A stretch of 26,718 bases of DNA, taken from IMG/VR virus record IMGVR_UViG_3300019889_000034, positions 1 through 26,718 of that record, one strand, 5' to 3'. This stretch comes from a virus. The notes under the pieces were generated by a model. The model had not been told where the DNA came from. It ran no database searches and saw nothing but the letters and a program-made list of their open reading frames with translations. Shown here one piece after another: positions 12,063 through 16,325 of the stretch. The position numbers and the translations under genes are program-made. Position 1 is the first letter of the stretch. The number at the start of each line of letters is the position of its first letter.

Positions 12063-12386
12063 ATGCCTCTAATAGATCCAATGCAGTTCCCAAAATTTGA
12101 TGCGGCGCTAAAAGAGGCGGGGCTGATTTCTAAAGACCGTGATTCTAGTCCTTTACAGGAAGATCTTGATCGTGTAGGTTTGGGTAAATTGGATGTTTTA
12201 AATACCGTCGGGGATATTATGAGGACCGGCGAAACATCTCAGAATCGGCTAAAAGCTGCGGAGATTGGTTTAAAACTAAATGGACTTTTGAGTAGAGATG
12301 ACAATGCTATACAAGTACCACATGTAACTATTGTAATAAAAGATTCTCAACATACTGATATTAATCCTATTTTGATTCCCCGTTAA
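12063..12386 (+). CDS. Possible small terminase-like DNA-packaging protein
   Basis: The 107-residue product has a helical middle (VLNTVGDIMRTGETSQNRLK, AAEIGLKLNGLL) and a C-terminal beta part HVTIVIKDSQHTDINPILIP. The helix that counts 'ges...RlkAae.alKl.G' followed by a TIVI strand recurs in phage proteins encoded ahead of the large terminase and annotated as small terminase or HTH-containing. It would bind pac/cos DNA and present it to TerL. The true small subunit may be another nearby gene, since TerL is 2.4 kb away. The family call is tentative. Confidence 0.5.
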   Translation: MPLIDPMQFPKFDAALKEAGLISKDRDSSPLQEDLDRVGLGKLDVLNTVGDIMRTGETSQNRLKAAEIGLKLNGLLSRDDNAIQVPHVTIVIKDSQHTDINPILIPR

Positions 12387-12398
12387 TTATTAAATTTT

Positions 12399-12662
12399 AT
12401 GAATAATGATACTAAAGTAATTGAAACTGAAGTCCCAGCTAATATAGATCCAACGAATTTGTGGATTCTTTATTATCGGCATGGTCCATCTCCTTTTCCG
12501 ATGTTTAAATTTTTCTATCATCCTGGAAAGTTTGGGGATGTAATTGAGCGGGCCAAAAATCACTGTACCGTTATGAATACCCGGTTCATTTCTATCCGGC
12601 CTGCAATTGTAAACCTTGCAGAAGAAGAAAAGCGTCAGGTTTCCGAGACACAATATGTTTAA
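12399..12662 (+). CDS. Hypothetical protein, 87 residues
   Basis: ATG at 12399 follows the previous stop by twelve bases with no strong ribosome site. The product has an acidic lead (NNDTKVIETEVPANIDPTN), then an aromatic and proline-rich part (LWILYYRHGPSPFPMFKFFY), then helix GDVIERAKNHC and a Glu-rich end (LAEEEKRQVSETQYV). It overlaps the next gene by eight bases. No membrane span is convincing. The family is unknown. Confidence 0.6.
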   Translation: MNNDTKVIETEVPANIDPTNLWILYYRHGPSPFPMFKFFYHPGKFGDVIERAKNHCTVMNTRFISIRPAIVNLAEEEKRQVSETQYV

Positions 12663-12930
12663 AAAAGTTAGATTTGGATCAGAGTGTTTAACAGCTTTAC
12701 AAGCTACATCAGCTATTTCCCATCGTTCTGTTTTAACTATTCTAGAGGTTACTTACAAGGGAATCAATGGATCAGTATTACCTTTCATCGAATCCTATAA
12801 GTACCTTCAGATATTTAGGAACGGCCTCTTTTTGACGGAAGGGGAAGATTATACCCTCGATCCTACTAAAATCACCTTTATAATCCCGCTCGCGGATACA
12901 GATCTTGTGAAATTGGTAGCTTGGGAATAG
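12655..12930 (+). CDS. Small beta-rich virion-type protein
   Basis: I choose ATG at 12655, inside the end of the preceding gene; the longer frame from 12616 lies within that gene. The 91-residue product (MFKKVRFGSECLTALQATSA and onward) ends with YLQIFRNGLFLTEGEDYTLD, then ITFIIPLADTDLVKLVAWE. The pattern 'NG..L..G.DYt....ItF..p...D.v.v' is common in short repeat domains of phage tail and appendage proteins. It may therefore be a virion decoration or adhesin module, although it sits well before the structural genes. Confidence 0.6.
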   Translation: MFKKVRFGSECLTALQATSAISHRSVLTILEVTYKGINGSVLPFIESYKYLQIFRNGLFLTEGEDYTLDPTKITFIIPLADTDLVKLVAWE

Positions 12931-12951
12931 AAAAGTGGTAAATAGAATAAA

Positions 12952-13224
12952 GTGGCTACAAAGTTTTATAAGCGACTGTGGCGTAGAAGAAAACAAAATA
13001 AAGAGAGACTTGTTCGATTACAGGCTTATAATGCTAGAAAATGGAATCGTTTCTTTGTGGACTATTGGGACGTGGCCGGAAAATATTTCGCCGTTAAGTC
13101 CTGTCTTAATCCACACCTTTTATCTTGCGGGCCACAATTAGCATTAAGTCCATATAAGGGAATGCGTGAGGGTATTAGGGGTAAAAGTAAAAGGTGGGAT
13201 CATAAAAAGGTAAAAGATGATTAA
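12952..13224 (+). CDS. Small strongly basic protein, 90 residues
   Basis: The frame starts at GTG 12952, without a good ribosome site, so the start is uncertain. The product is rich in Lys and Arg (ATKFYKRLWRRRKQNKERLV, then SKRWDHKKVKDD) with an aromatic middle (WNRFFVDYWDVAGKYFAVK). It may bind nucleic acid or the capsid interior. Its stop overlaps the start of the next basic gene (ATGATTAA). An alternative frame at 12935-13141 covers the same DNA; I prefer this one because it reaches and couples to the next gene. Confidence 0.5.
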   Translation: MATKFYKRLWRRRKQNKERLVRLQAYNARKWNRFFVDYWDVAGKYFAVKSCLNPHLLSCGPQLALSPYKGMREGIRGKSKRWDHKKVKDD

Positions 13225-13348
13225 AATACCTAAATTTCCTAAAACAAAAGCAAAAGGCAAAAGTGGGATTGCTGAAACCATAGCCGGGAATATTATGGCG
13301 GCGCGGCAAAGTAGCAAGGGCAAGAAATCCTATCCTAAGGGTAAATAA
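13217..13348 (+). CDS. 43-residue lysine-rich protein
   Basis: ATG at 13217 has AAAAGGTAAAAG upstream and overlaps the previous stop by eight bases. The product is MIKIPKFPKTKAKGKSGIAE, then TIAGNIMAARQSS and a basic tail KGKKSYPKGK. Nearly one residue in four is Lys. A nucleic-acid- or peptidoglycan-binding peptide is possible. No family is recognised. The overlap and clear ribosome site support it as real. Confidence 0.6.
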   Translation: MIKIPKFPKTKAKGKSGIAETIAGNIMAARQSSKGKKSYPKGK

Positions 13349-13353
13349 TATCA

Positions 13354-13578
13354 ATGAGTTTTTCAAGTATGCTTAATCTTTTAAAATCCGGGTCCAAGTG
13401 CCGGAGGGCCGATTGGGATAATAAGGTTATACATATTGGATTATTGATTCCTGATGAATTTAATCATATGACTTTACCCTTTATGTACTTGAAAAATGTA
13501 AATAATCAACTTGTTCCCTGGCTACCTTCACAGGCGGATATTTTTGCTGAAGATTGGGAAGTAGCCTTATCAATTTAA
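13354..13578 (+). CDS. DUF2829 protein, Tad2-like anti-Thoeris candidate
   Basis: This 74-residue protein matches the DUF2829 pattern throughout: F-x-x-M-L-x-L-L-K-S-G at 3-13, then R-A-D-W (18-21), a loop with PDEF, and the hallmark VPWLPSQADIFAEDW at 54-68. DUF2829 is the family of Tad2, a phage protein that sequesters the cyclic nucleotide signal made by the Thoeris TIR enzyme and so blocks that defence. Full-length family members are about this size, so it appears intact. It works, by inference, as a small soluble oligomer in the host cytoplasm. Neighbours are other small accessory genes. The family is sure; the anti-Thoeris activity of this copy is not tested. Confidence 0.8.
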   Translation: MSFSSMLNLLKSGSKCRRADWDNKVIHIGLLIPDEFNHMTLPFMYLKNVNNQLVPWLPSQADIFAEDWEVALSI

Positions 13579-13598
13579 AATTTAAGGATAATTTAAAT

Positions 13599-13814
13599 AT
13601 GAAACCATCAATAGGTAGAATAGTTATTTATAACCATCCGGGTAGTGCTGATGGTAAATATCCTTCTTCTAAATCTCCTGCTATTATACAAGCGGTAGAT
13701 GAAGAATTTGATACTGTTACTCTTTGGGTTTTTGGACCTAAAGGATTACATCACGATTCAGGATTAAAGCAGGGTGACGGACCTTGCCAGTGGAATTGGC
13801 CCCCCAGAGTTTAA
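13599..13814 (+). CDS. Conserved small phage protein (PSIGRIV-type)
   Basis: I start at ATG 13599 (AAGGAT eleven bases upstream); the frame opens earlier, but only within the preceding gene. The 71-residue product begins MKPSIGRIVIYNHP, has SPAIIQAVDEEFDTVTLWVF and ends PCQWNWPPRV. This pattern (PSIGRIV-Y, PAII..V, v.L.VF, W.WP) recurs in small proteins of many unrelated phages, with no assigned role. It is probably a small SH3-like beta barrel. It directly follows the DUF2829 gene, so it may be part of the same accessory set. Confidence 0.65.
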   Translation: MKPSIGRIVIYNHPGSADGKYPSSKSPAIIQAVDEEFDTVTLWVFGPKGLHHDSGLKQGDGPCQWNWPPRV

Positions 13815-13825
13815 AAGGTGGTAAA

Positions 13826-14011
13826 ATGATACCAACAGTTATAAATATCAATGTCAAAGTAGATTTTCCGGCATTGGATTTGTTTATCAAATATTTGGTG
13901 GAGAATAAGCAATCTGAAGTTAATAATATAACTTTGAAGGTTAATTCATTGACGGAAAGATTGATTGTGTCTAGTACAAAACTTGAAGCAGTTATTAAAA
14001 AGGAGAATTAA
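13826..14011 (+). CDS. Small helical protein, 61 residues
   Basis: ATG at 13826 has AAAAGGTGGTAAA upstream. The product has an N-terminal strand (MIPTVININVKVDFP), a helix (ALDLFIKYLVENKQSEVN) and a second helix SLTERLIVSSTKLEAVIKKE. The last part resembles TVTARAVASSDKLAAAVLA at the end of the next protein, suggesting a shared helical unit. It is probably a small oligomeric coiled-coil protein. Family unknown. Confidence 0.6.
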   Translation: MIPTVININVKVDFPALDLFIKYLVENKQSEVNNITLKVNSLTERLIVSSTKLEAVIKKEN

Positions 14012-14015
14012 AAAG

Positions 14016-14321
14016 ATGCCTAAAGTAGATTATACAGCTCTAAATGCTGCGGTAGAAGCTGCAACTGCGGCGGTTACAAAAGTGGAAACTGTTGGTGGAA
14101 GTGCCGTAGAACTTATTACTCAATTCTCATCGCTTCTTTTGGCAGAAGTTACAAAAGCCTTGGATGCTGATAATTTGGCTGATCAAAATACGATTAACGC
14201 TGTAACGGAAGTATTTAATACTGTTACTGCGCGTGCGGTTGCTTCCAGTGATAAATTGGCAGCGGCGGTTTTGGCAGGAACTCCTTCTGCTCCGCCGGTA
14301 GAAAATCCTCAGACCGTATAA
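14016..14321 (+). CDS. Alanine-rich coiled-coil protein, 101 residues
   Basis: ATG at 14016 has AAAAAGGAG and follows the previous stop by four bases. The product (MPKVDYTALNAAVEAATAAV and onward) is almost wholly predicted helix with Ala/Val/Leu spacing, ending in a Pro-rich tail (TPSAPPVENPQTV). Short Ala-rich helical proteins with a proline tail are frequent in phages, and their role is unknown. The C-terminal helix resembles that of 13826-14011. Confidence 0.65.
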   Translation: MPKVDYTALNAAVEAATAAVTKVETVGGSAVELITQFSSLLLAEVTKALDADNLADQNTINAVTEVFNTVTARAVASSDKLAAAVLAGTPSAPPVENPQTV

Positions 14322-14402
14322 TTAATTTATAACGAATTCTTAAACGACCGGTTACCTCTGAAATTGGTCGTAAGAAGAACGGGTCTTTAAACTTTTCCAC
14401 CG

Positions 14403-14429
14403 TTAACAAGAAAAGTAATTTAGTATAAT
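14403..14429 (+). promoter_or_regulatory. Possible sigma-70-type promoter
   Basis: TTAACA at 14403-14408 and a perfect TATAAT at 14424-14429 are separated by 15 bases, shorter than the usual 16-18. The start site would fall at about 14436, after the first ATG of the next small gene but before its second ATG at 14444. Just upstream is a weak inverted repeat ACGACC / GGTCGT (14344-14371). Low confidence because of the spacing. Confidence 0.35.
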
Positions 14430-14431
14430 AA

Positions 14432-14581
14432 ATGGGTAATCGAATGAAGAGATTGTTTTTGATTGCTGCACTTTTTATGGCAGTAGTAGCTTTTACTGCT
14501 TCGACGGTTAATCTGGGACCTACTATTCCTCCAGATTATTGGTGTGGTGAAGCTGGTCATGATCCTTGTCCTACTAGCTAA
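14432..14581 (+). CDS. 49-residue secreted peptide with signal sequence
   Basis: The frame reads MGNRMKRLFLIAALFMAVVA followed by FTASTVNLG and a short tail with two cysteines (PDYWCGEAGHDPCPTS). A basic N-terminus, about 15 hydrophobic residues and a small-residue stretch (TAS) make a typical Sec signal peptide, leaving a mature peptide of about 26 residues with a possible disulfide. ATG at 14444 is an alternative start. The ribosome site is weak. It may act in the periplasm or at the cell surface, for instance in superinfection exclusion or lysis timing; this is inference. Confidence 0.55.
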   Translation: MGNRMKRLFLIAALFMAVVAFTASTVNLGPTIPPDYWCGEAGHDPCPTS

Positions 14582-14846
14582 TTTTTTATAAAGATACTAA
14601 AGGGGGTGATCCTTATTTAGTAACTTAATTAAATACAGTTATTCGTTTGAACAAAGGGTAATAGGGGATTTTGGATCTTGTTAGGCCGGGTCCCCTACAA
14701 ATAAAAATTTCTATAGAATCTAATATTATGAGTCAAATCATAATAGGCCAATGAGTTCACCTCTTCTCATTAGATAAAATCGAGGTAAGGTCATTTAATG
14801 AAAGTGGGATTTGGACCTTATCAAACTAAATCCCCGAGAAAAATTA
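14582..14846 (+). promoter_or_regulatory. Structured non-coding region ahead of the terminase gene
   Basis: This 265-base gap carries three inverted repeats: TAGGGGA / TCCCCTA (14662-14668, 14691-14697), TATTATGA / TCATAATA (14724-14731, 14738-14745) and TAAGGTC / GACCTTA (14786-14792, 14814-14820). It also has TACTAA at 14595-14600 followed by AGGGGGTGAT, echoing the hub at 11782-11800. It probably contains the promoter or operators for the late packaging genes, but I see no clear -35/-10 pair. Confidence 0.45.
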
Positions 14847-14875
14847 ATGGATCTAGAAATAACTTTTCAAGATAA
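14798..14875 (+). CDS. Possible 25-residue leader frame overlapping TerL start
   Basis: ATG at 14798 has the best ribosome site near the terminase start (GAGGTAAGG, seven bases away), yet it opens a separate frame of 25 codons (MKVGFGPYQTKSPRKINGSR and onward) ending inside TerL. It could be a leader that controls TerL translation by re-initiation, or a sign that the TerL start region carries a frameshift. It lies in the loop of the TAAGGTC/GACCTTA hairpin. Confidence 0.35.
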   Translation: MKVGFGPYQTKSPRKINGSRNNFSR

Positions 14876-16325
14876 ACAGCAACGGGATTTTTATTACGCA
14901 ACCCAGAGGAATCAGTGTTTCTCTGGTGGGTTCAATAATGGGAAATCCTTTGCGGGTTGCTTGAAGGTATTTACACTTTCTAATACATTCAGGAAATATA
15001 AAACTGCTATCTGCCGCGAAGTTTATGCTGATTTGAAGAAAACAACAATGGAGACATTCTTCAAAATCTGCCCGGATGAAATGGTTGAGTCTCATAATTA
15101 TCAGGATGGTAAGACGGTCCTAAAGAATGAATCCGAGATTTACTGGATGCATTTGGATGCTGTAAATGAACAATCTTTAAGAGGCTTGGAAGTAAATTCG
15201 GTATTAATGGATCAGGCTGAAGAAATCCAGGAGCAGATTTATGATGTTATGGATGCGAGAATTGGTCGTTGGGATAATGCTATTATTCCAGATTATCTAT
15301 TGAAAGCTAATCCTGATTGGCCAATTGGTAAAACAGGAAAATATATAGCCCCATCTTATATGATGCTCCTCTGTAATCCTGATACACAATTTCATTTCAT
15401 CTACAAAAAATATCACCCGGAATCTCTTGATCGTGATGAAAATTATTTCTTCGTGGAAGGAGAATGGAATCCGAATTTAGGGTCAAGAGAATCTTATGAT
15501 GTAGCAATGAAACATTCGGAAGAATGGGTAGAAAAGTACATTAAGGGAAAGTGGGGAATTAGTAGTGCACAGATTCATAGGGTAAGGGAAGATTCACTTC
15601 TTGAATATTCTGAAGAATTGATGGATAGAATATTGAGGAAGGGGAATTTATTCCGTATTTTGGACCACGGCGAAGCTTCTCCTACTTGTTGTTTATGGGT
15701 AGCAGCTATCAATGGGGTTTTTATAGTCTACCGTGAATATTATTCCCCTGGTAAAGTTATTTCCTATCATCGTCAATCTATCCATGATTTATCAAAGGGT
15801 GAACAATATTCGGCGAACTGGGCTGACCCGCAGATTTTTAAAAAGACGGGACAAAAAGATGGCGGGTATTGGACAACAGCGGACGAATATTTGGATCGTA
15901 ATCTTCCTGCTCCTCCTCTTACTTGGATACCTGCGGATAATAATGAATTCGCCACTCGTAATAGAATTAATGAAATTCTTGCAGGTCATTCTGGGATTCT
16001 TCATCCAGTAACTGGGCGGGATAATTCTCCTCGGATCTACTTTATAAAGAAATCCACAAAACATCCATTTGGTTGTTATCATGCAATTAATGAGACTCAG
16101 AGCCAGCGGCGGAAATTAATTGGGTATCATAATGGAACGGCGATTTATGGGGATGATAGGGAAGATTCCATTGCGGACCATTCCTATGATTGTGTTCGGT
16201 ATTTTGCAGCTATGCATGGGAACGGGAAATCAGTTCCGCCGAGAATTATTAGGCCCAACACTTTTAAATATTTCCAGAAAATAGCAATGAGACCTAGGGG
16301 ATTAGTAGCTGGATCGGTACAATAA
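14847..16325 (+). CDS. terL: Terminase large subunit
   Basis: The DNA-packaging motor: an ATPase plus nuclease that cuts concatemers and pumps DNA through the portal. With the start at ATG 14847 (492 residues), the order is an adenine-side lead FQDKQQRDFYYATQ, Walker A variant GGFNNGKS (27-34), Walker B VLMDQAEE (D122, E125), motif III LLCNP (174-178), then the RNase H-like nuclease with D273 in RILDHGE, D327 in WADP and D444 or D448 in IADHSYD. The Walker A lacks the usual GxGKT but keeps the lysine and serine. A TTG at 14811 would add twelve residues. The neighbour downstream is the portal, after a tiny zinc protein. Confidence 0.9.
   Translation: MDLEITFQDKQQRDFYYATQRNQCFSGGFNNGKSFAGCLKVFTLSNTFRKYKTAICREVYADLKKTTMETFFKICPDEMVESHNYQDGKTVLKNESEIYWMHLDAVNEQSLRGLEVNSVLMDQAEEIQEQIYDVMDARIGRWDNAIIPDYLLKANPDWPIGKTGKYIAPSYMMLLCNPDTQFHFIYKKYHPESLDRDENYFFVEGEWNPNLGSRESYDVAMKHSEEWVEKYIKGKWGISSAQIHRVREDSLLEYSEELMDRILRKGNLFRILDHGEASPTCCLWVAAINGVFIVYREYYSPGKVISYHRQSIHDLSKGEQYSANWADPQIFKKTGQKDGGYWTTADEYLDRNLPAPPLTWIPADNNEFATRNRINEILAGHSGILHPVTGRDNSPRIYFIKKSTKHPFGCYHAINETQSQRRKLIGYHNGTAIYGDDREDSIADHSYDCVRYFAAMHGNGKSVPPRIIRPNTFKYFQKIAMRPRGLVAGSVQ

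Follow-up and report, generated by a model that had tools for sequence, protein, structure and literature searches.

The window, the whole 26,718-nucleotide stretch of viral DNA that was analysed, carries a short open reading frame between two conserved genes upstream and the gene for the terminase large subunit (TerL) downstream (Table 1). The frame is intact from an ATG at 13354 to a TAA at 13576-13578, and its full product of 74 amino acids reads MSFSSMLNLLKSGSKCRRADWDNKVIHIGLLIPDEFNHMTLPFMYLKNVNNQLVPWLPSQADIFAEDWEVALSI. This protein scores 70.6 bits (E-value 1.6e-19) against PF11195.14 (Tad2-like, Thoeris anti-defense 2-like domain) in Pfam, where the curated cut-off is 25 bits. The alignment pairs residues 1-70 with profile positions 1-72 of 73, which covers the whole domain, and no other reading frame in the 26.7 kb record matches the family. 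The original prediction had recognized the DUF2829 pattern from end to end, and the profile search it proposed agrees, clearly excluding the lack of a significant family match.

Table 1. Features at the locus, with positions in the window.
Feature	Position	Strand	Basis
Possible small-terminase gene, conserved, upstream of the slot	12063..12386	+	Homologues at the same position in many relatives
Conserved small gene, upstream edge of the slot	12399..12662	+	tblastn in related contigs
Variable accessory slot between the 12399-12662 gene and TerL	12663..14810	+	Flanks conserved, content differs in related contigs
Tad2-like (PF11195) gene, 74 aa, short-loop form	13354..13578	+	Pfam, AlphaFold2, Foldseek
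Codons of the beta1-beta2 loop, residues 19-26 (ADWDNKVI; relatives GWNGKG), pocket-lining in known Tad2	13408..13431	+	Conservation; PMC12043709
Codons of the short central loop, residues 32-42, replacing helix alpha2 and a longer insertion	13447..13479	+	Model without the helix; span 47 versus 60 in SPO1 Tad2
Hallmark VPWLPSQADIFAEDW, residues 54-68, strand beta4 to alpha3	13513..13557	+	Translation; conservation
phrog_2293-like gene, 71 aa, small beta barrel	13599..13814	+	phrog_2293, E 3e-16; directly downstream of the Tad2-like gene
TerL gene, downstream edge of the slot	14811..16325	+	phrog_2, E 1.5e-18

The top PDB matches found by phmmer are Tad2 chains, led by SPO1 Tad2 (8sme, 4.5e-8) and followed by 8wje, 8v3e and 9eib; Myroides Tad2 and ModTad2 rank after SPO1 Tad2. 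A profile built from 57 relatives matches Tad2/AcrIIA7 chains only, and tblastn relatives of the protein are encoded in 154 phage records. A search of NCBIfam gave no match, and a search for a close homologue, intended for a selection test, found none. Weak matches to Kringle/plasminogen (Pfam, phmmer) were taken as composition noise. The predicted hallmark is in place, nothing is missing from the beta4-alpha3 segment, and the residues of the hallmark that are conserved in the 57 relatives are kept (W56, S59, D62, A65, E66, D67 and W68), as are the invariant R18, W21, D62, D67 and W68. By its sequence the protein is a member of the already known Tad2 family. Tad2 is the protein with which other phages soak up bacterial immune signals.

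Given the 57-sequence alignment and a single chain, AlphaFold2 predicts a monomer (pLDDT 92.5) whose elements follow the order alpha1, beta1, beta2, beta3, beta4, alpha3, beta5 in SPO1 numbering, without alpha2. The best Foldseek match of this model in the PDB is SPO1 Tad2 with 1''-3' gcADPR (8smf, E 8e-7, TM 0.81). All 24 PDB matches at E <= 0.001 are Tad2/AcrIIA7 entries; further matches are ModTad2 with His-ADPR, SptTad2 with cGG and HgmTad2 with cADPR, and the first unrelated match has an E-value of 0.29. The comparison with known Tad2 structures, which had been suggested alongside the profile search, likewise came out positive: the modelled protein has the Tad2 monomer fold, with helix alpha2 missing.

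SPO1 Tad2 (Gp34.65; 8sme/8smf/8smg) shares with the window protein the family, the monomer fold, the alpha3 hallmark segment and the small size, whereas the window protein is shorter by 13 residues in its central part, lacks alpha2, reads DWDNK for GWNGK and is about 30% identical. It spans 47 residues from W21 to the tryptophan of the final DW; the corresponding span is 60 in both SPO1 Tad2 and ModTad2, with a median of 62 across 81 sequences. In the model, beta2 and beta3 are linked by a loop of just 11 residues, with no insertion before beta3. In SPO1 Tad2, alpha2 and beta2 form a V-shaped dimer contact (reviewed in PMC12043709). ModTad2/MoTad2 from Myroides odoratus (9eib, 8v3e) has the same family and fold (TM 0.76-0.81) but, in addition to its longer central part, falls into another, supported clade of the tree; the ligand of SPO1 Tad2 is gcADPR and that of MoTad2 is His-ADPR (PMC13299392). 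HgmTad2/AcrIIA7 and SptTad2 (8kbi, 8kbj, 8wjd) also share family and fold but are proteins of about 100 amino acids with long insertions. Cyclic dinucleotides are bound via an insertion between beta2 and beta5 (PMC12043709), and the long beta2-beta5 insertion of the HgmTad2/SptTad2 type is absent from the window protein.

The central loop had been predicted to be short and, as a special feature, to hint at a different ligand. The first part stands, but the loop is less special than the second part implies: the span of 47 recurs in phages of Mycobacterium (Curiosium gp4), Acinetobacter (XC38) and Aeromonas (Ahp1) and in several uncultivated phages (L070-L075), and as several unrelated phages share it, the short loop represents a recurring form of the family, nothing peculiar to the window protein. 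Most of these short proteins share a PD..xKMTLPYIY-type centre with the window protein, with identities of up to about 50%; their pocket loop, unlike that of the window protein (DWDN), still reads GWNG. To our knowledge no ligand has been tested for a short-form member, and we found no functional test of these proteins. In the tree, the short forms and a few others form a set with 83/83 support, which is not a starred set; the window protein sits on a long branch (1.62), and its exact place is unsettled. In Aeromonas phage Ahp1 (L065, 1983-3911) a short-form gene immediately precedes one for nicotinamide phosphoribosyltransferase, an arrangement that would be in keeping with counter-defence by restoring NAD+; such a phosphoribosyltransferase was found in one of 20 short-form records, and we treat the linkage to NAD salvage as an anecdote. 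In another viral contig, of 322 kb, a Tad2-like domain forms the N-terminal part of a 289-aa reading frame (L018, 7776-8642), possibly a fusion.

The pocket loop is a different matter. The gcADPR pocket consists of the beta1-beta2, beta3-beta4 and beta4-alpha3 loops together with beta4 and alpha3 (PMC12043709). In the first of these loops GWNG is kept in 71 of 76 relatives, and G20, N22 and G23 are each at least 90% conserved in the 57 relatives, but the window protein has D, D and N at these positions (D20-W21-D22-N23-K24). This change is more unusual than the short loop and would be the stronger hint of an altered ligand specificity; because the beta1-beta2 pocket loop is changed, the ligand preference or the affinity may well differ from those of SPO1 Tad2. 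The loss of GWNGK, which we had looked for as a mark of a functional Tad2, lowers the case for a sponge without excluding it, since GWNGK is not known to be essential. The protein could also have lost its function, but this is less likely, as the remaining core is retained.

Related viral contigs share a common gene order of 12063-type gene, 12399-type gene, TerL, portal and capsid. The portal gene downstream of TerL is supported by PHROGs, and TerL itself is where it had been predicted (Table 1). The original prediction also placed the Tad2-like gene in an accessory island, which is borne out by the relatives, as they keep the flanks and vary the content between them. The upstream gene that had been called terminase-like, likely the one at 12063-12386, is less certain: its position fits a small terminase, but the profile evidence is weak, with a small-terminase family match for one of nine homologues (E 0.03). 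Two further genes in the window's slot, at 14016-14321 and 12672-12930, resemble small genes of the relatives by eye; their products are a coiled-coil-like protein rich in alanine and a protein with the motif RNGLxLTEGxDYTL, which is typical of virion-like domains. Among annotated phage records TerL matches haloarchaeal tailed viruses only, at about 22-23% identity, which places the phage in a poorly sampled lineage. When GTDB genomes were searched with the capsid profile to infer the host, a single contig of 4.8 kb from a Patescibacteria MAG matched, which we set aside as too weak and perhaps a binning error.

The slot is nearly empty in two relatives (about 120-170 bp in L033 and L035). It holds another, divergent Tad2-like gene in L021, a phrog_2293 gene in L057 and the gene of a PF02026 RyR-domain protein in L022; in L037, whose contig is cut off upstream, a divergent Tad2-like gene lies just before TerL. 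Most relatives with the slot have no Tad2-like gene, and the majority of the slot genes in relatives have no link to counter-defence, coiled-coil and virion-like genes being among them. The TerL proteins of L021 and L022 are 70% identical, and a small gene (MIRSG...) that directly precedes the Tad2-like gene of L021 has a homologue with 38% identity that directly follows the RyR gene of L022. Two Tad2-like matches and one RyR match in 593 kb of related records all lie inside the slot, which makes up 7.7% of the bases. The chance of three out of three is about 5e-4, or about 3e-5 if phrog_2293 is counted, and because these figures were computed after the data had been seen, the clustering of Tad2-like and RyR genes in the slot is suggestive.

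A 2026 preprint (PMC13232231) reports that Thoeris is defeated by phage RyR-domain proteins (RyDEP), which break down or sequester cADPR signals. The RyR-domain protein in the pre-TerL slot of L022 (8509-8919, plus strand; PF02026, E 1.4e-9) has H77, W80, H102 and D119 with spacings of 3, 25 and 42, identical to those of the RyDEP ligand residues H75, W78, H100 and D117 (PMC13232231); it is a candidate anti-Thoeris enzyme or sponge. This RyDEP-like gene fills the same slot as the window's Tad2-like gene and shares its proposed purpose, the removal of Thoeris signals, but RyDEP is unrelated to the 74-aa protein in family and fold, and there is none in the window. Co-occurrence of Tad2 and RyR genes was seen in none of 50 records.

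We favor the explanation that the 74-aa protein is a compact Tad2-family sponge for a TIR-made, ADP-ribose-type signal, and put its probability at about 0.62. The family, the predicted monomer fold and the variable slot are the firm parts of this explanation, and make the protein a probable nucleotide-signal sponge. In its favor we count the PF11195 match, the Tad2-only Foldseek matches, which include complexes with gcADPR, His-ADPR and cADPR, the kept invariant residues, the Tad2-like genes (L021, L037) and the RyDEP-type gene (L022) in the same slot, and the precedent of the family; against it we count the changes at G20, N22 and G23, the missing dimer-contact helix alpha2, and the slot genes without a counter-defence link. 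During infection the protein would oligomerize and trap a small nucleotide signal made by a host TIR or related enzyme. The likeliest class of ligand would be ADP-ribose derived, namely gcADPR, His-ADPR or a relative, and cyclic dinucleotides would be unlikely ligands because the insertion that binds them is absent. With the signal trapped, a Thoeris-type effector would stay silent, and the host NAD+ and the infection would survive. If the protein does bind a signal, this would show that a minimal Tad2 fold can still act as a sponge when alpha2 is missing and the pocket loop is rewritten, and a different ligand might come to light.

The change from GWNG to DWDN, the lack of alpha2 and the long branch would also fit a protein of the Tad2 fold that no longer takes up ADPR signals and is instead a sponge for another nucleotide, or is AcrIIA7-like with a different target; relatives of the Tad2 fold are indeed filed in the PDB under AcrIIA7 or "Inhibitor of Type II CRISPR-Cas system". 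However, the core is otherwise preserved, no structure matches better than the gcADPR-bound form, and the best known alternative site, the cyclic-dinucleotide insertion, is lacking, so that we consider such a shift unlikely, though it is the strongest of the alternatives. Still less probable is an ordinary, non-immune role of this PF11195 protein, for example in packaging or virion assembly, that would explain the position before TerL. Unrelated phages, too, have Tad2-like genes next to their terminase genes (upstream in Curiosium and MalagasyRose, directly after TerL in Klebsiella phage IME346), and the slot also houses coiled-coil and virion-like genes, but the Tad2-like gene is dispensable, since most slot-bearing relatives do without it, and other short forms are placed quite differently, for example beside ribonucleotide reductase or clamp loader genes. 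That the gene is a decaying Tad2 copy whose product no longer binds anything, as the lost pocket-loop residues and the long branch might suggest, is very improbable given the intact frame, the confident fold and the remaining conserved core.

The phrog_2293-like protein encoded next to the Tad2-like gene is predicted to form a small beta barrel (model pLDDT 95.5), for which no convincing relative was found among solved structures. The window's copy has no Pfam family and shows a weak match to an unnamed viral protein and nothing else; matches of the phrog_2293 profile to TATA-binding protein were rejected as short stretches with no domain passing alone. Copies up to about 80% identical are found in other uncultivated phages. 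In Mycobacterium phage Curiosium the same pair, likewise in this order, lies upstream of the terminase genes (gp4-gp5). In Anaya, a relative of Curiosium, gp4 is the phrog_2293 gene at the corresponding site, and the stretch covered contains no Tad2-like gene. L173/L174 have one more such pair, with 150 bp between the two genes and their order reversed. The pairing is nevertheless occasional, since phrog_2293 was found in none of 50 Tad2 records and a Tad2-like gene in two of 50 phrog_2293 records. It is doubtful whether the short PF11195 form and the adjacent phrog_2293 gene make up a two-gene counter-defence module, in which a sponge with its own ligand and a beta-barrel partner from a new counter-defence family would occupy a pre-terminase slot of interchangeable anti-TIR genes. 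Nevertheless, the slot offers a route by guilt by association: because Tad2-like, RyR-domain and phrog_2293 genes are found at one place in related phages, the remaining slot genes of undefined role, phrog_2293 first, become testable candidates for counter-defence.
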